In this document: positions 45,352-54,252 of the stretch, piece after piece | Layout of the letters: each line of letters begins with the position of its first letter | How positions within the stretch are numbered: position 1 is the stretch's first letter | NCBI GenBank assembly: GCA_016938735.1 | Contig: JAFGUB010000044.1 | Span: 1 to 54,252, forward strand | Direction of reading: 5' to 3' | Source of the DNA: Campylobacterales bacterium | GTDB lineage: Bacteria > Campylobacterota > Campylobacteria > Campylobacterales > Sulfurimonadaceae | Length of the DNA stretch: 54,252 nucleotides | Program-made: the position numbers and the translations under genes | Notes under the pieces: model-generated | Database searches by the model: none | The model's input: only the letters and a program-made list of their open reading frames with translations | Told to the model about the DNA's origin: nothing

Positions 45352-48300
45352 ATGGCGATGAAGATCGCACTTTCACACAAAACCCACTACCACTACGACC
45401 GTTCTATTTCGCTCTCTCCTCATGTGATTCGTCTGCGTCCGGCACCCCACTCGCGCACCCCCATCGAAGCCTACTCGCTCAAGATTAAACCTGAAAATCA
45501 CTTCATTAACTATCAACAAGACCCTTTTGGTAACTACCTAGCGCGCATCGTCTTTCCCGAAAAGACGCGCGAACTCTTTATCGACGTAGAGGTGATCGCC
45601 GAGATGATCACCATCAACCCCTTTGATTTTTTTGTCGAGGAGTATGCAGACAAGTACCCTTTTGCATACAAAGAGGGGCTGAAAAAAGAGCTGGCCCCCT
45701 ATCTGGAACTTGAAGCGGCGGGCGCAAAGCTCAAAGCCTTTTTGGCCACAATTGACCGTACACCCCGTTCGATCATCGACTTTTTGGTTGAGATGAATCA
45801 AAAGATCAACAGCTTTCTCAACTACACGATCCGCATGGAGCCCGGAGTGCAGAGCTGCGAAGTGACGCTGGCGGGTAAACTCGGTTCATGCCGCGATTTC
45901 GCTTGGCTCTTTGTGCAGGTGTTGCGGCACTTGGGGCTGGCGGCGCGTTTTGTTTCGGGCTATCTGGTACAGCTGGCCGCCGATGTCAAATCGCTTGACG
46001 GCCCTAGTGGCCCCGAAGCGGATTTTACCGACTTGCACGCGTGGACGGAGGTCTATGTCCCCGGTGCGGGGTGGATCGGGCTTGATGCCACGAGCGGACT
46101 CTTTGCAGGTGAGGGACATATTCCGCTCGCGTGTACGCCACATTTCGAGAGTGCGGCGGCGGTAGAGGGCTTTAGCGACAAGTGTGAGACAGAGTTTTGG
46201 TATGAGAACAAAGTGACGCGCATTTTTGAATCCCCGCGCGTGACCAAACCCTACCGTGACGAGCAGTGGGAGGCGATTTATAATCTGGGCTTTAAGGTGG
46301 ATGAGGAGCTTACATGTAACGATGTGCGCCTCACAATGGGGGGCGAACCCACCTTCGTCTCCATCGATGATATGGAATCGCCGCAGTGGAATACCGAAGC
46401 CGACGGCCCGCACAAACGCGAGCGTGCGACGGTGCTCTCCAGACGCCTACTCAATCAATTCGGCAAAGGGGGCGTACTGCACCATGCGCAGGGTAAGTGG
46501 TATCCGGGCGAGCCGTTGCCACGGTGGATGCAGAGCATTTTCTGGCGCAAAGACGGTAAGGCGATCTGGCGCGATCCTGAGCTGCTGTGCGGGATGGATC
46601 AGCACTTTGAGTGGAGCCTTGAAGATGCCAAACGCTTTATTGACACTTTGGCGCTGAGTCTGGGCATTAGCGATCAAAATATCCTCCCTGCGCTTGAAGA
46701 TCCCCTGCCGCTGCTGTTGCGCGAAGCCTCTTTGCCTGAGGATCTTGATCCGCTCAAAGTCGATCTGGACGATCCACTCGAGCGTGCGCATTTGGCACAA
46801 ACGCTCAGTCGCGGCATGAAAACGCCACGCGGTTTTGTACTGCCGCTGGGGTGGGGGATGACCAAGTGGATCACCTCGCGCTGGAGTTTTCGGCGTGGGG
46901 CGCTCTTTTTGATCGAAGGCAACTCGCCGCTGGGGCTGCGCCTGCCGCTGGATTCGCTGCTGCACAGCCCGCATGTGGAACTGGAGCAGAGCTTTGAGCC
47001 TGACCTTTTTGCCGCCTATCCCGCTTTGGGAGAGTATCACGGTGCCGCAGAGGTGCGCGCCGCATCGGTCAAGGCGAGAACAACACCTTATCAAAGTTAC
47101 GAAGCCTTTGTGCGCACCGCGCTCTCGGTTGAGATCCGTGAGGGCAAGCTCTTTATCTTTTTGCCGCCGCTGCAGCACGCGGAGGCCTTTATGGATCTGA
47201 TGGCCTCGATCGAAGTGACGGCAAAGAAACTCAATATGCCTGTGATGCTTGAGGGCTACGAGCCACCACATGACCCACGCATCGAAAAACTGCGCGTTAC
47301 CCCAGATCCCGGGGTGATTGAGGTGAACATCCATCCCGCCCATTCGTGGGGCGAGCTTAGCGAGACGATTTTGCAGCTTTATGAAGAGGCGCGGCTCTCA
47401 CGGCTGGGGACAGAGAAGTTTATGGTGGACGGCAAGCACACGGGTACCGGCGGGGGCAACCATGTCACCATCGGCGGCGCAACGCCTAGCGACAGCCCGC
47501 TGCTGCGCAATCCCAGACTACTGCGCAGCCTCATTACCTTCTGGCAGCACCATCCTGGGCTAAGCTATCTCTTCTCCGGTGCTTTTATCGGTCCCACCTC
47601 CCAAGCGCCGCGTGTGGATGAAGGGCGAGTCGAGAATCTGTATGAGCTGGAGATCGCTTTTTCACAGATTCCCCAAAACGAGAGCGTCCCCTTTTGGCTC
47701 ACCGATCGGCTCTTTCGCCATATGCTTACCGACATCACGGGCAACACGCACCGCAGTGAATTTTGTATCGACAAGCTCTACTCTCCCGACTCCTCTAGCG
47801 GAAGGCTGGGGCTGCTGGAGCTGCGCGCCTTTGATATGCCCCCGCATGCACGCATGAGTCTGATGCAGATGTTACTGGTGCGTACCCTTGTGGCGCTCTT
47901 TTGGCGCAAACCCTACGAGCACAAGCTGGTGCGCTGGGGCACGCAACTGCACGATAAGTTTTTGCTAGAGCACTACGTCAAACAAGACATTGCCGATGTG
48001 GTCGATTTTCTGCGCGCCGAGGGCTACCCATTTGAGCTCGATTGGTTTGACCCCTTCTTTGAGTTTCGCTTTCCGCTTTATGGGATGAGCCGCGTATCGG
48101 ATATGGAGTTTGAGCTGCGCGCGGCCATCGAGCCGTGGCATGTTTTGGGTGAAGAGTCCACGTCGCAAGGTACGGCGCGCTACGTCGATTCATCACTGGA
48201 GCGGGTGCAGGTGAAGGTGAAGGATTTTGTGAGTGAGCGCTATGTGCTTACATGTAACGGCGTGCGGGTACCGCTGGTAGAGAGCGGCGTCGAGGGTGAA

Positions 48301-48720
48301 TACGTTGCGGGGGTGCGCTACCGCGCGTGGCAGCCCTATTCGGCGCTGCATCCGACCATCGGGGTGGATACGCCGCTGGTGTTTGACGTGGTCGATAGCT
48401 GGAACCGCCGCAGCATGGGCGGTTTTACCTACTTCGTGTCACATCCGGGCGGGCGCAGTTACGATACCTTCCCCATCAACGGCTACGAAGCGGAGTCGCG
48501 CCGTATCAGTCGCTACTGGAGCTTTGGCCACTCTCAAGGGGAGATCGAGGAGCTGCTCGCCCCGATCCGCGAACAGCACGCGGTTGTGCCTGAGGGCGAT
48601 ATGAAGGCGCACAAAGTGGTTAAAAACGACGGGGCGCACCACTTCTTTTACCAAGAGCTGCCCCAAAGCCGCGAATACCCTCATACGCTCGATCTGAGAC
48701 GCAAGGTGGCTTCACGCTGA
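45352..48720 (+). CDS. Transglutaminase-like/DUF2126 putative amidoligase
   Basis: 1122 residues from the ATG at 45352 (AAGGATA upstream). N-terminal transglutaminase N-domain (about 1-100), then a cysteine-protease-like core with C180 (GSCRDFAW), H229 (DLHAWTEV) and D245 (LDATSG), complete. From about residue 320 it is DUF2126 (RLTMGGEPTFVSIDD, TGTGGGNHVTIGG, SGAFIGPTSQAPRVDE, DITGNTHRSEFCIDKL), annotated in Pfam as a putative amidoligase. No signal peptide. First of three overlapping genes; likely makes or attaches an unknown amide-linked peptide. Palindromes at 46310 and 48248 are read LTCN. Confidence 0.85.
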   Translation: MAMKIALSHKTHYHYDRSISLSPHVIRLRPAPHSRTPIEAYSLKIKPENHFINYQQDPFGNYLARIVFPEKTRELFIDVEVIAEMITINPFDFFVEEYADKYPFAYKEGLKKELAPYLELEAAGAKLKAFLATIDRTPRSIIDFLVEMNQKINSFLNYTIRMEPGVQSCEVTLAGKLGSCRDFAWLFVQVLRHLGLAARFVSGYLVQLAADVKSLDGPSGPEADFTDLHAWTEVYVPGAGWIGLDATSGLFAGEGHIPLACTPHFESAAAVEGFSDKCETEFWYENKVTRIFESPRVTKPYRDEQWEAIYNLGFKVDEELTCNDVRLTMGGEPTFVSIDDMESPQWNTEADGPHKRERATVLSRRLLNQFGKGGVLHHAQGKWYPGEPLPRWMQSIFWRKDGKAIWRDPELLCGMDQHFEWSLEDAKRFIDTLALSLGISDQNILPALEDPLPLLLREASLPEDLDPLKVDLDDPLERAHLAQTLSRGMKTPRGFVLPLGWGMTKWITSRWSFRRGALFLIEGNSPLGLRLPLDSLLHSPHVELEQSFEPDLFAAYPALGEYHGAAEVRAASVKARTTPYQSYEAFVRTALSVEIREGKLFIFLPPLQHAEAFMDLMASIEVTAKKLNMPVMLEGYEPPHDPRIEKLRVTPDPGVIEVNIHPAHSWGELSETILQLYEEARLSRLGTEKFMVDGKHTGTGGGNHVTIGGATPSDSPLLRNPRLLRSLITFWQHHPGLSYLFSGAFIGPTSQAPRVDEGRVENLYELEIAFSQIPQNESVPFWLTDRLFRHMLTDITGNTHRSEFCIDKLYSPDSSSGRLGLLELRAFDMPPHARMSLMQMLLVRTLVALFWRKPYEHKLVRWGTQLHDKFLLEHYVKQDIADVVDFLRAEGYPFELDWFDPFFEFRFPLYGMSRVSDMEFELRAAIEPWHVLGEESTSQGTARYVDSSLERVQVKVKDFVSERYVLTCNGVRVPLVESGVEGEYVAGVRYRAWQPYSALHPTIGVDTPLVFDVVDSWNRRSMGGFTYFVSHPGGRSYDTFPINGYEAESRRISRYWSFGHSQGEIEELLAPIREQHAVVPEGDMKAHKVVKNDGAHHFFYQELPQSREYPHTLDLRRKVASR

Positions 48721-51197
48721 TGGCATCGCTGTTTGAGGGCTACGAGGCACTCTCGCGCTATGACGAGATGTTTGATGCGGCGCATCAGGTGCGTTCCCAT
48801 TGGCAGGGGGTACACCGTCTGCTGGATTCACTAGGTTCTGAAGCACTGCGCGCGCGCCAAAGCGATATCGACTGGCGGCTCGAAGAGAACGGCGTTACCT
48901 ATAATGTTTACAACGATCCCGAAGGGCTCAATCGTCCTTGGCGTCTCGATCCGATCCCCTTTATCATCGACGCCGATGAGTGGCGGGGAATCGAAGCGGG
49001 GCTGAAGCAGCGGGCACTGCTGCTTGATCTGCTGCTTAAAGACCTCTACGGAGCGCAGCGTGTGCTTAAAGAGGGAGTAGTGCCGCCAGAGGTGATTTTC
49101 GGTCATTCGGGTTTTATCCGCAGTGCTTTTGGGCATATTGATTCGTCTGTGGCCGCACTGCGTATCTACGCCGCCGATATGGCGCGCGGTCCCGATGGCA
49201 AGATGTGGATCATCAACGACCGTACGCAGGCCCCTTCGGGGCTTGGATATGCGATTGAAAACCGTCTGGCCATGAATGGGGCGATGGCTGAGCTGCTTGG
49301 AGAGGTGCATATCCACCGTATCTCAGGTTTTTTAAACGCGTTTGGCACCATGCTGCGCGATCTTGCCCCCAGCCGCAGCGACAATCCTTTACATGTACTG
49401 CTTAGCCCCGGCCCCTACAACGAAACCTATTTTGAACACGCCTATCTCAGCTCCTTTTTGGGGCTTACTCTGGTGCAAGGACAAGATCTGCTGGGCAAAG
49501 ATGGCAAGATCTATCTGCGCTCACTCGGCGGGCTGCGCCGCGTTGATACGATGCTGCGTCGGGTGGATGACTCTTTTTGTGATCCGCTTGAGCTGCGCAG
49601 CGATTCGCGGCTGGGGGTGGCGGGACTGATGCACGCTGTGCGCGAGCGCAGTATCGCTATGGCCAACCCTATCGGCAGCGGATTGCTTGAAAATGCCGGA
49701 CTGAACCCCTTTATGGGCGCTACGGCAAAGTTTTTTCTAGGCGAAGAGCTGCTGTTGCCGCAGATTGCGACGTGGTGGTGCGGACAGCGAAAGGAGCGCG
49801 ATTTCGTACTTGAAAATCTCTCGACGCTGATCATCAAGCGGATTGATCGGGGGGAGGGGAAGCACACCTTTATCGGAGCGCAACTGAGCCAAGCAGAGCG
49901 CTTGCAGCTGCGTGCGATGATTTTAGAACATCCTTATCGCTACACCGGGCAGGAGCAGGTCACGTTTTCGACGACGCCGGCGCTCGGCGAAGGGGGCATC
50001 GTACCGCGCAAGGCGATTATCCGCTCTTTTGGCGTGCGCGCTGAGGAAGGGTATGCCATCATGCCGGGAGGGTTAGTGCGCGTCGGGTCACAGACCGATT
50101 CGCTCATCGTCTCCGGACAAAGCGGTGGCGGCAGTAAGGATCTTTGGATCGCGGGCACGAGCGAAAGTACACAAGAACACTATATCCCGCCGATTGTTTC
50201 AACTGCGGACCATCTGGAGCATATTCCGAGTCTCAGGGCCGAGAACCTCTTTTGGCTGGGGCGTTATCTTACCCGTTCGATCATCACCGCACGGATGATC
50301 CGCACCGCACTCAAACTCAGTGCCAACCTGTACCGCAGCGAGCAGCGCTTTAGCGAAAATGCGCAGAGTGCGATCAACCGGGCTCTGACCCATTTGACGA
50401 TGACCTACCCCGGCTTTCTCGATCCGCTCACACAGCGCCAGAGTTTGGGTGAGATCCGTTCCGTTGCCACCGACGCGCGGCGTTTGGGCTCCTTGGCGCA
50501 TACGCTGACGATGCTCTCAAATGCCAACGCCGGAGTCAAAAACCTCCTGACGCTCGAGGGGTGGCGGATCTTTGATCGGCTGGAGCGAGATTTCGGTCTC
50601 TTTAGCCGTGCTAAAAACAGTTCGTCACGCTCGCTGGCCAACGGTCTTGAGCAGCTCGTGACGCAGCTTATGGCCTATCGGCAGCTCATTGAGGAGAGCC
50701 TTTTTGAGGGGCTTCTGCTGTATCGTATCGGCGAGCGGATCGAACGGGGGCTACTGGTGGTCTCGAAGGCGCGCGCCTTGTTGTGCAGTGCTTTGGAATC
50801 TCAGGTGCAAAACGAGGTGCTGGAGAACATGCTGCTCTCGTGTGAAAGCCTCAACGCCTACCGTGCGCATTATAAAACAGTGCTGCGTCTTGAGAACGTT
50901 ATCGAGTTGATGTTGCTCGATATTCGTTTCCCAAAATCGCTTATCTATGAGCTCTCCGAGCTGCAAGCACTGTTGCAGCGACTGCCCAAATCCCGCGATG
51001 CACGCTATTTGAGTCGCTATGAGGAGAGCGTGTTTGCGGCTTTTTCCAAGTTGCGCCTCTACCACGGCACAAAAACACTCGAGGCAGTAGGGGATGTTCG
51101 TATGGAGTTTGATGCGCTGCTTGGGGAGATCGGGGCTCTGTTGGCGGCATGTTCCAATGAACTCGGTAAGACCTATTTTGCCCATTACGACGAGTAA
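48720..51197 (+). CDS. Circularly permuted ATP-grasp ligase fused to alpha-E domain
   Basis: 825 residues; ATG overlaps the preceding stop by one base. N-terminal half (about 1-480) matches the DUF404/DUF407 circularly permuted ATP-grasp family (RTQAPSGLGYAIENRLAMNG, LSPGPYNETYFEHAYL, NPIGSGLLENAGLNPFM). The rest (about 500-810) is the helical alpha-E domain (DUF403): NLFWLGRYLTRSIITARMIR, GWRIFDRLERDFGLF. These two are usually separate genes; here they form one protein. Expected to activate a carboxylate with ATP and join it to an amine. Confidence 0.88.
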   Translation: MASLFEGYEALSRYDEMFDAAHQVRSHWQGVHRLLDSLGSEALRARQSDIDWRLEENGVTYNVYNDPEGLNRPWRLDPIPFIIDADEWRGIEAGLKQRALLLDLLLKDLYGAQRVLKEGVVPPEVIFGHSGFIRSAFGHIDSSVAALRIYAADMARGPDGKMWIINDRTQAPSGLGYAIENRLAMNGAMAELLGEVHIHRISGFLNAFGTMLRDLAPSRSDNPLHVLLSPGPYNETYFEHAYLSSFLGLTLVQGQDLLGKDGKIYLRSLGGLRRVDTMLRRVDDSFCDPLELRSDSRLGVAGLMHAVRERSIAMANPIGSGLLENAGLNPFMGATAKFFLGEELLLPQIATWWCGQRKERDFVLENLSTLIIKRIDRGEGKHTFIGAQLSQAERLQLRAMILEHPYRYTGQEQVTFSTTPALGEGGIVPRKAIIRSFGVRAEEGYAIMPGGLVRVGSQTDSLIVSGQSGGGSKDLWIAGTSESTQEHYIPPIVSTADHLEHIPSLRAENLFWLGRYLTRSIITARMIRTALKLSANLYRSEQRFSENAQSAINRALTHLTMTYPGFLDPLTQRQSLGEIRSVATDARRLGSLAHTLTMLSNANAGVKNLLTLEGWRIFDRLERDFGLFSRAKNSSSRSLANGLEQLVTQLMAYRQLIEESLFEGLLLYRIGERIERGLLVVSKARALLCSALESQVQNEVLENMLLSCESLNAYRAHYKTVLRLENVIELMLLDIRFPKSLIYELSELQALLQRLPKSRDARYLSRYEESVFAAFSKLRLYHGTKTLEAVGDVRMEFDALLGEIGALLAACSNELGKTYFAHYDE

Positions 51198-51199
51198 CC

Positions 51200-52090
51200 A
51201 TGACCTATCAGATTTATCACAAAAGCACGTTTTACTATCAGCAACTGGTGACCTTTAGCCACAACCTTGCGCGTCTCAAACCTAGAGAGACGCCGTTTCA
51301 GAAGCTTGCATCCTGGAGGCTGGAGGTCGCTCCCGAAGCGGCGATGCGGGAGTGCTTTGATGATTATTTCGGTAACGCCATCACCCATTTGCTGGTGCGC
51401 GAAGCGCACACCGCGCTGGAGGTGACGGCACATTCGCAGGTAACGATCGACAGCAGTGCACTGCAAGCGTACTATGACACGGCGCGTGCGCATCCTCTGA
51501 GCGTTGCTGAGGCACTGACGCGGCTTGGGGTGAATGACCCCGCTTTGATCGACATCAAGCAGTATCTTTTCCCTTCCGTAATGGTGCCTGGCGCCGGTGA
51601 AGCGATACGGCTTTTTGCACTAGAATCCTTTATAAGCCAGCGGCCGCTTTTTGAGGCTGCTATGGAGCTGATGGAGCGCATCTTTGAAGAGTTTACCTTC
51701 GAGAGTGGTTTTAGCGACATCTCTACTCCTGTCGAAGAGGTGTTTGAAGCCAGAAAAGGGGTCTGTCAGGACTTTGCCCATCTGGCCATTGCCGCGCTGC
51801 GCGCTTTGGGTTTTGCCGCGCGCTATGTGAGCGGCTATATCGAAACGACGCCACCCGAGGGCGAAGAGAAGCTCTTTGGTGCGGATGCCTCTCATGCGTG
51901 GTTTTCGCTTTATATCCCCGATGTGGGTTGGGTCGATTTCGATCCGACCAATAACTTGCTCCCTTTAGAGAAGCATATTGTTTTGGGATGGGGACGCGAC
52001 TACGCCGACGTGGCACCGCTGCAAGGGGTAGTGCGCAGCAGTGGAGAGAGCAGCGTCGGGGTGATGGTGGATGTGCGATCGCTGGAGTAG
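51200..52090 (+). CDS. Transglutaminase-like cysteine peptidase
   Basis: 296 residues. N-terminal beta-barrel domain, then core with C189 (KGVCQDFAH), H232 (DASHAWFS) and D248 (FDPTNN), so catalytically complete. Two bases after the ATP-grasp gene. The family often accompanies the DUF2126 and alpha-E genes. May trim or crosslink the product made by the two ligases. Last gene of the operon. Confidence 0.88.
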   Translation: MTYQIYHKSTFYYQQLVTFSHNLARLKPRETPFQKLASWRLEVAPEAAMRECFDDYFGNAITHLLVREAHTALEVTAHSQVTIDSSALQAYYDTARAHPLSVAEALTRLGVNDPALIDIKQYLFPSVMVPGAGEAIRLFALESFISQRPLFEAAMELMERIFEEFTFESGFSDISTPVEEVFEARKGVCQDFAHLAIAALRALGFAARYVSGYIETTPPEGEEKLFGADASHAWFSLYIPDVGWVDFDPTNNLLPLEKHIVLGWGRDYADVAPLQGVVRSSGESSVGVMVDVRSLE

Positions 52091-52120: not shown

Positions 52121-52149
52121 TTGACATGAAACACCAATTACAGTAGCAT
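52121..52149 (+). promoter_or_regulatory. Putative sigma-70-like promoter of the lipoprotein gene
   Basis: TTGACA (52121-52126), 17-bp spacer, TAGCAT (52144-52149), 27 bp before the ATG at 52176. Unlike the other promoters in the window it has a good -35 box. Confidence 0.5.
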
Positions 52150-52175
52150 TGAGCCAAACGCAAAAAGGCACACAT

Positions 52176-53870
52176 ATGAACCGTATCCGATTGCTGATGG
52201 GCGCTTTGCTCTCTGTACTTCCTCTTTTGGCCTCATGTACCCCTTTTCAAGACGCCTTGCAAACCAGAGCTGCGGCGTATGACGTTACATGTAAAGAGAG
52301 CCAAAGCGGTGAAAGTGTTACATGTAAGCCCTCAGGGAATCTAGGCGCAAGCATGACCATCCCCGTGCTTCGCACGCCGACACTGCCGACACTCGGCAAC
52401 GAGACGACGACTTCATTTGATACGGCTTTAAAAGCCTTACATGTAAGCACCATGAGTGTGGGCATGAAGAACCGCTTTGAAGCGGCGGCTACGGATGCGA
52501 TTCATATCGGCACGCTCACTATGGGCGTAGAGAGCAGCCTTAGCCTCAAAGCCCCGACACTCTCTATCGCTACGCTCAACGAAAGCGCGTCATCAAGTCC
52601 CAACACCATCACGCTCATCGCCGATACGCTTGAGATCGGGGCTTTAAACCTTGCCGATAACACCCGTCTCTCTATCGCCCCTTTTAGCGCTGCGTCTGTT
52701 ACGGTGGTGATCGGTACGATGCGCAGCGGGTCTAAAGCGCACATCGCCCTTGCTTCAGGCGAGTACCATATTGGCACATGGACGACAAGCGGCGGGGGAT
52801 TACAAACATCCATAACCCCCACAGGCAAGGTCATTCTCGTTCACGGCAGCAACCTCACCGTTGGCGCCGCCAACCTGCTCAATGCCGATGCCAGCGGCGA
52901 CATCTGCTCCGATACCCACAATGCCGATGATCTGACCCTACTGGTACACGGTGATGTGACGCTTAAGGCCAACAACAGAGCAAGCGCCATACTCTATGCT
53001 ACAGGAGATGTCACACTAGAGAGCGGCGTGGCGTTTAAAGGAGCGATCAGCGCCCAAAGCGCCATCAACCTGCATCAGGGGGTGAAGGTGTGTTATGCGG
53101 GGTGTGCGGGTTCTGTTCCTACCCAACCGCAAGCAACTCTTACGTCGCTGGGTATTGAGCTTGATCGCAATGAGCTTGCCGAGGGCAATGCAACAACCTT
53201 ACATGTAAGGGCTTTTTATGATGACAACAGCATAAAAATATTAAGCGGTGACTTTAATCTAAGTATTGGAGACAGTAGCATTGTAAGCTTTGACGGTAAC
53301 ACAACGCTGATGGCACTTAAAGAAGGGGAAACCGCGTTACTGGCCAGATATCATGGCATTACTTCCAATGCCCTGATACTAAGTGTGTACAAAGCGGTTA
53401 ATGGCCACCGCCTGCCGCCACAACCTGATGAAGCGCAAAACAACTCCACCTTGCTTGGGATTGACAGTAACAATAACGGAGTAAGGGATGATGTGGAGCG
53501 GTGGATATTTAGTGAATATGATCACCCGGTTGTACAAGCTGCTGCAATGCAAAACGCAAAAGTATTTCAAATTATTTTAGTTGATCCTTCTAAAGCAAGA
53601 CAGACAAAAAAAGTTATGGAGAATGCACACGATTGTATTGTCTATTATCAACTATATGCAGATAACTTAAACGAAGAACTACTAATTCCTGAAAATATTG
53701 AAATTTATGAAGAGTCTCTACCAATTATTTTGAATACAAAAGAACGTTCACGAGCTTATTATAAATATAATCAGGTGCTAAGTGGTGGCATCTATCCATT
53801 ACGTAACATTGAAACATTAAAGAGTAAATGTGATTTCAATGCTACGAAAGTAATGAGAGGTGAGTGGTGA
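52176..53870 (+). CDS. Composite lipoprotein with Ig-like domain
   Basis: 564 residues from the ATG at 52176. Signal peptide with lipobox LASC (Cys21). Residues 50-310 are repetitive, Ala/Ser/Thr-rich with beta-roll-like strands and a series of hydrophobic repeats (VTLKANNRASAILYATGDV) like polymer-forming cell-surface proteins. About 320-410 is a BIG2-like Ig domain (SLGIELDRNELAEGNATTLHVRA). A Ca-binding-like segment DSNNNGVRDDVERW at about 436 precedes a C-terminal region of unknown type. The last 600 bp are more AT-rich than the rest of the window. Four exact palindromes lie inside (52285, 52318, 52437, 53199), the highest density of any gene. Confidence 0.75.
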   Translation: MNRIRLLMGALLSVLPLLASCTPFQDALQTRAAAYDVTCKESQSGESVTCKPSGNLGASMTIPVLRTPTLPTLGNETTTSFDTALKALHVSTMSVGMKNRFEAAATDAIHIGTLTMGVESSLSLKAPTLSIATLNESASSSPNTITLIADTLEIGALNLADNTRLSIAPFSAASVTVVIGTMRSGSKAHIALASGEYHIGTWTTSGGGLQTSITPTGKVILVHGSNLTVGAANLLNADASGDICSDTHNADDLTLLVHGDVTLKANNRASAILYATGDVTLESGVAFKGAISAQSAINLHQGVKVCYAGCAGSVPTQPQATLTSLGIELDRNELAEGNATTLHVRAFYDDNSIKILSGDFNLSIGDSSIVSFDGNTTLMALKEGETALLARYHGITSNALILSVYKAVNGHRLPPQPDEAQNNSTLLGIDSNNNGVRDDVERWIFSEYDHPVVQAAAMQNAKVFQIILVDPSKARQTKKVMENAHDCIVYYQLYADNLNEELLIPENIEIYEESLPIILNTKERSRAYYKYNQVLSGGIYPLRNIETLKSKCDFNATKVMRGEW

Positions 53871-54202
53871 AAATAATTGCAACGTTTTTACTTTATGCTA
53901 TATTTTTTTGTTTCTCACCGCTCTACGCTAAGGCAGATATTTATTTAGCTACTGGTGTTTTGACAACGAAAAAAACGGGGACAGGAAGAATAACAATATT
54001 ACATGTAATCCAAAGGATTTCTCATTTCAGCTCTGCTAGATTATGAAAAACTTGCTTTACATGCGCCCAAAGGAAGTACCCTTGGGTTGTAACGCGAGAG
54101 AGTGAAAATGATGGACTCTTTTTTGCGGTTGACAAAGAACCCTCACAGCATTTAAACTATTTTCCCTTACTCCACGACAAAATAGGAACCCAAATTGCTT
54201 AA
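53867..54202 (+). pseudogene. Broken gene for a small exported protein
   Basis: Starts at a GTG overlapping the lipoprotein stop: VKIIATFLLYAIFFCFSPLYAKADIYLATG, a signal peptide. After TTKKTG coding sense moves between frames: in one, NNNITCNPKDFSFQ; in another, ALLDYEKLALHAPKGSTLG; in a third, KYPWVVTRESENDGLFFAVDK and on to a stop at 54200. At least three small indels are needed for one continuous protein. No family is recognised. AT-rich like the preceding gene's end; probably decayed horizontally acquired DNA. Exact palindrome at 53999-54008. Confidence 0.55.
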
Positions 54203-54252
54203 GCTGATCCAAAAAGCATTTGAGGGTACAAACAGATGGAATATGTCGAGAA
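54203..54252. other. End of window, no feature seen
   Basis: Fifty AT-rich bases after the broken gene's stop. No start codon with a ribosome-binding site and no hairpin are visible. Confidence 0.4.

Follow-up and report, generated by a model that had tools for sequence, protein, structure and literature searches.

Near one end of a 54,252-nucleotide contig of a Campylobacterales bacterium (JAFGUB010000044.1, assembly GCA_016938735.1; the whole contig is the window referred to below), three forward-strand genes, P1, P2 and P3, form a tight operon. These genes are real and widely conserved, and constitute one arm, arm A, of a conserved seven-gene, two-arm enzyme set, the apparent role of which is to assemble and trim small molecules held together by amide bonds. 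P1 (45,352-48,720; 1122 amino acids, aa) joins an N-terminal transglutaminase (TG)-like cysteine domain (about 45,367-46,089; triad C180/H229/D245) to DUF2126, a glutamine synthetase (GS)-like putative amidoligase domain (46,177-48,699); its Pfam matches are Bact_transglu_N (2.4e-25), Transglut_core (7.7e-17) and DUF2126 (1275 bits). P2 (48,720-51,197; 825 aa), the open reading frame of which overlaps that of P1 by one base, consists of a circularly permuted ATP-grasp domain (CP_ATPgrasp_2, 3.3e-135; 48,957-50,084) fused to an alpha-E domain (Alpha-E, 3.6e-43; 50,226-51,179). P3 (51,200-52,090; 296 aa) is a second TG-like protein (Bact_transglu_N, 1.5e-22; Transglut_core, 3.4e-22; triad C189/H232/D248) with a relative in the PDB, 3isr. 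A search of NCBIfam gave no match. For P1 and P2, these assignments draw also on structure models compared with Foldseek. A preliminary description of this DNA had proposed one tight operon of three genes with complete Cys-His-Asp triads, belonging to a neighborhood type predicted by comparative work on amidoligases. All of this stands: the reading frames are exact, the Pfam matches strong and the gaps small, both triads are intact and invariant across homologs, and the four domain families lie side by side. Iyer, Aravind and colleagues reportedly described such DUF2126/ATP-grasp/alpha-E/TG neighborhoods in 2009 and predicted a role in peptide synthesis or modification; arm A has the same families in the same type of tight operon. 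By eye, no signal peptide is apparent at the N-terminus of any of the three proteins, which suggests that the two-arm system is probably cytoplasmic.

In many relatives, arm A adjoins a second arm, arm B, which encompasses a standalone ATP-grasp protein of about 455 aa, a standalone alpha-E protein, a tandem pair of AstE/AspA-type M14 proteins and, sometimes, a third TG. In the window genome, arm B is found at the start of another contig, C5 (L046), with the ATP-grasp (L046:2743-4113), alpha-E (L046:2087-2851), intact aspartoacylase-like M14 (L046:1103-2056) and dead M14 paralog (L046:175-1116) genes all on the minus strand. Judging from their ends, the window contig and C5 are separated by nothing but an insertion sequence. 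The window closes with the left end of this multi-copy element (54,166-54,252), which bears a 17-bp terminal repeat, and the other end starts C5 (G000:C5:1-93); the two inverted repeats are alike at 16 of 17 positions, and both abut the 9-bp target-site duplication CTATTTTCC, located at 54,157-54,165 in the window and repeated on C5 beside arm B. The repeats and the duplication were spotted by eye and then checked; the window contig end and the C5 start share no exact words of at least 15 bases. The left end of the insertion sequence is present at four places in the assembly, which accounts for the break, and the shared duplication indicates that the two contigs are neighbors. In the nearest relative (L061), the arms are uninterrupted and convergent, with TG and M14 genes overlapping by 9 bp; relative to it, the window genome has gained the insertion sequence and a 573-aa gene between the arms. 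This gene (52,149-53,870, forward strand) encodes a putative lipoprotein with an LLASC lipobox, recognized by eye, and no Pfam or NCBIfam match; given its absence between the arms in L061, it is an accessory insertion. The three-gene operon initially described is thus real but incomplete, the second arm adjoining it across the contig break.

The linkage of the two arms is not peculiar to this lineage. Of 298 Campylobacterota genomes sampled, 21, spread over many genera, have DUF2126 above the family cut-off, and a standalone alpha-E accompanies it in 20 of these 21 vs 6 of the 277 others (p 7e-25, uncorrected for kinship); the single genome without it is a 240-contig assembly. The arm B partner is present also in all 13 other genomes (12/12 Flavobacteria plus Francisella), so that the two arms are shown to co-occur across phyla. 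On an Enterobacter plasmid, both arms make up one five-gene operon, without M14 or the proteasome-family protein Anbu. When about 85,000 species genomes were scanned, 445 loci were confirmed, and relatives of the set are present in hundreds of genomes. The best 80 of the 445 loci, which were kept, take in Bacteroidota and one Francisella; nearly all of those with enough sequence have the order TG-DUF2126, ATP-grasp-alpha-E, TG, with median intergenic gaps of 0-3 bases. This recurrence of the arm A order in other genera and phyla excludes a chance association. The fusion of ATP-grasp to alpha-E, initially singled out as special, is the rule in homologous loci. In Francisella, P1 and arm B are present and the fused P2 is absent. 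The TG-DUF2126 protein of Francisella philomiragia ATCC 25015 (L085:10001-13375), with no fused ATP-grasp beside it, is 71% identical to P1, which suggests acquisition by horizontal transfer.

The two ATP-grasp proteins of the set differ in the residues that a ligase requires. The circularly permuted ATP-grasp fold of P2 is borne out by fold and sequence similarity to glutathione synthetases and to 3n6x, a putative glutathionylspermidine synthase (Mfla_0391) that is the closest solved relative of both ATP-grasp types; the model matches, in addition, GspSA and the E-64 ligase Cp1B. In Escherichia coli GspS, R316, D318, E330 and N332 lie within RMDF...EYN, and the corresponding D...EDN pattern occurs in 3n6x and the standalone homologs. 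The Mg2+ ligands of GspS and glutathione synthetase include this E..N pair and the Glu of the glycine loop. P2 carries N166 and R168 in place of the E..N pair of GspS and 3n6x, has R377 in place of the loop Glu, and has lost the glycine loop (EAGGYG in arm B), whereas 3n6x keeps both the EDN motif and the loop. Neither E nor N is kept in any of 90 fused homologs drawn from Campylobacterota, Bacteroidota and two classes of Proteobacteria, compared with both in 56 of 56 alignable standalone homologs; the arm B protein of the window genome retains E144, N146, EAGGYG and K348. Comparison by hhalign with E. coli GspS and GlnA was uninformative, the profiles being too shallow, so that residue equivalence rests on the close alignment to 3n6x, on the motif of GspS and on the matches in fold. 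All fused proteins group in a single clade (support 0.98); the loss is therefore old, and the protein has been retained since. P2 is, in the light of these substitutions, probably a pseudo-ligase, and its absence from Francisella is expected if it is not the essential ligase. We found no description of this loss of ligase residues in the literature, the 2009 amidoligase paper being outside the comparison. The preliminary description had named the disappearance of the catalytic residues of this very domain as evidence against its reading, and this is what P2 shows; it pointed to P2 as the ligase and overlooked both the amidoligase-like DUF2126 and the intact ATP-grasp of arm B.

Within the window, the likely ligase is instead the GS-like DUF2126 domain of P1. 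DUF2126 is annotated in Pfam as a putative amidoligase, and the part of the P1 model beyond the TG domain matches mainly glutamine synthetases and gamma-glutamylmethylamide synthetase, weakly (E 0.02 and above) and from a model with a predicted local distance difference test score (pLDDT) of 66; against 4s17, Foldseek gives E 0.023 and a probability of 0.95. DUF2126 homologs are invariant at E657, N659, H704, E823 and R825, residues reminiscent of glutamine synthetase motifs. With P2 stripped of its expected residues, the arm B ATP-grasp intact and DUF2126 probably GS-like, two probable ligases of different folds remain.

The M14 proteins show a similar split. One intact copy is paired with one lacking the zinc ligands in 39 loci and, in all 41 dead copies, the second His is replaced by Glu, which implies that the dead copies, too, are under selection. 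In the window genome, the intact protein is of the AstE/AspA type with HxxE..H zinc ligands, which its neighbor lacks. The arm B M14 proteins match PF24827 and were missed by PF04952. The short third TG of arm B (256-257 aa) has lost the catalytic Cys in eight loci (L028, L029, L031, L032, L033, L037, L056, L084) and is a further dead paralog in the set. Some 5 kb from arm B, a forward-strand gene (L046:9144-10424) encodes a protein with M14-like motifs (GIQGDE, NLHDGSG), which presumably resembles cell-shape carboxypeptidases.

Comparison with characterized systems suggests several partial parallels. One is the Anbu operon, with which arm B shares cassette content and order; in Yersinia, the ATP-grasp of that operon splits phosphate off ATP, and neither Glu nor Gln stimulates this. 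Here, however, Anbu is missing, arm B includes an intact and a dead M14 protein, and the DUF2126 arm is added; the only proteasome-family gene of the window genome is HslV, beside HslU, and arm B amounts to an Anbu operon lacking Anbu. GspSA (E. coli gss) unites a Cys-amidase and an ATP-grasp synthetase in one polypeptide, much as P1 joins a Cys domain to a ligase-like domain, and P2 has the same ATP-grasp fold; P1 differs in that its Cys domain is TG-like and its ligase-like domain of the GS type. RloABC and RimK-RimB of Pseudomonas embody the same logic of ATP-grasp, TG-like protein and peptidase, but the Rlo TG is inactive and membrane-bound and the peptidases are aspartic, whereas the TGs described here have full triads and no membrane part; identity with RloABC was, accordingly, set aside. 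In the E-64 pathway, two ligases build a small amide compound without a nonribosomal peptide synthetase (PMC12568646), and P2 matches the GSS-like ATP-grasp fold of one of them, Cp1B (PDB 9cjn); this pathway, however, is fungal and relies, for its second ligase, on an adenylating amide bond synthetase rather than a GS-like enzyme. Finally, no short open reading frame conserved across genera was found in the arm clusters, a distant precursor being outside the search. This speaks against a cluster for a ribosomally synthesized, modified peptide; the search for co-occurring short peptide genes had been suggested as a check of the system.

We propose, with a probability that we put at roughly 45%, that the two arms form a cytoplasmic system for making and remodeling amide bonds, the product of which would be a small non-ribosomal amide metabolite. 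Amide bonds would be formed in succession by two ligases, namely DUF2126 of P1, which is GS-like, and the glutathione synthetase-like ATP-grasp of arm B; by analogy, this would parallel glutathione synthesis, in which a GS-like ligase precedes an ATP-grasp. P2 would have no catalytic part and would act as a scaffold or hold the substrate. The Cys domains of TG type would transfer or hydrolyze the amide, with P1 combining such a domain and a ligase in a single polypeptide, like GspSA, and the M14 enzyme would take off an acyl group. That the end product most likely is a small metabolite is supported by the lack of a short precursor gene conserved across genera in the cluster, and the making of fungal E-64 by an ATP-grasp ligase and a second amide ligase (PMC12568646) provides a precedent. 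A more specific and distinctly tentative version of this proposal is that the set works through catalytic/pseudo-catalytic pairs, ATP-grasp with pseudo-ATP-grasp-alpha-E and M14 with pseudo-M14, the dead partners being obligate scaffold or specificity subunits, and that its product is an amide metabolite new to description, common to Campylobacterota, Flavobacteria and some Proteobacteria.

Several observations weigh against the metabolite proposal. The DUF2126 model is mediocre (pLDDT 66), its match to GS is weak (E 0.02), and hhalign, with shallow profiles, did not confirm it; the Anbu literature supports tagging as much as a metabolite; and P2 may still be active. The tagging alternative, in which proteins would receive an amide-linked tag from the ligases and TGs and lose it again through the M14 enzyme, as proposed for Anbu, appears to us unlikely on balance, if the strongest of the competitors. 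A tagging system, with Anbu as the cleaving enzyme, is how the Anbu operon (ATP-grasp, alpha-E, TG, Anbu) was interpreted in earlier work (PMC6376114), and arm B is this very cassette, found with Anbu in Maribacter arenosus, the only one of 12 Flavobacteria with an Anbu homolog, which lies inside the cassette, and with the M14 pair in Campylobacterota. However, there is no Anbu in the window genome and no second proteasome homolog in 26 related genomes, and Yersinia Anbu displayed neither peptidase activity nor a stable complex with its operon partners (PMC6376114). Moreover, the AstE/AspA relatives of the M14 enzyme act on small N-acyl amino acids.

It is less likely still that P2 remains an active ligase, a third one with a different chemistry, in which E235 and D376 would replace the lost metal ligands. 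These acids are conserved in 88 and 86 of the 90 fused homologs, respectively, with other residues in the standalone proteins at both positions; P2 also keeps K373, D153, R281, D283, D288, R435, R454, K473 and D474, and its ATP-grasp domain has stayed conserved at a mean identity of 54%. Yet P2 has lost the glycine loop, its Glu and both residues of the E..N pair together, and Francisella dispenses with P2 entirely. Least probable is a role in nitrogen economy, with nitrogen stored or salvaged as amide and the set called upon under ammonium shortage: expression of PP_2685 (Anbu) and PP_2688 (ATP-grasp) in Pseudomonas putida is 4.44 and 3.99 log2 units higher on nitrate than on ammonium, with urea uptake genes rising as well (PMC8050072), and the same domains correlate with urea metabolism in marine metagenomes (PMC3597751), but these observations were made on the Anbu-type cassette or on domains in bulk rather than on the DUF2126 arm, and a simple sigma-54-like pattern precedes only 1 of 101 DUF2126 genes and none of 57 ATP-grasp genes.

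The setting of the operon between housekeeping ribosomal genes and an AT-rich end agrees with the preliminary description: upstream of P1 lie genes that we take, from the list of reading frames, to be ffh, rpsP, rimM, trmD and rplS, and the contig end is richer in AT than the rest of the window. Contrary to what had been supposed, the genome itself, at 2.85 Mb in 62 contigs, is not small for its phylum, the listed Campylobacterota relatives spanning 1.3-3.2 Mb. The nearest P1 record, at 93% identity, comes from a metagenome assembly named Sulfuricurvum.

Taken together, these findings uphold the original view of an amidoligase/TG/alpha-E neighborhood with no named product, and depart from it with respect to P2 as the ligase, the novelty of the fusion and the small genome. 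The system itself is of a known kind; to this, the present analysis adds an adjoining second arm, a fused ATP-grasp that has lost its ligase residues, and the pairing of active with dead enzymes. Our literature search, too, found no paper naming a product for the DUF2126/ATP-grasp/alpha-E/TG set. An assay of amino acid-dependent ATP hydrolysis on P2 alone, as initially suggested, could mislead by a negative result. The split between the probably intact ligases, DUF2126 of P1 and the arm B ATP-grasp, and the probable pseudo-ligase, P2, guides the choice of proteins for purification and argues for supplying the two arms together.

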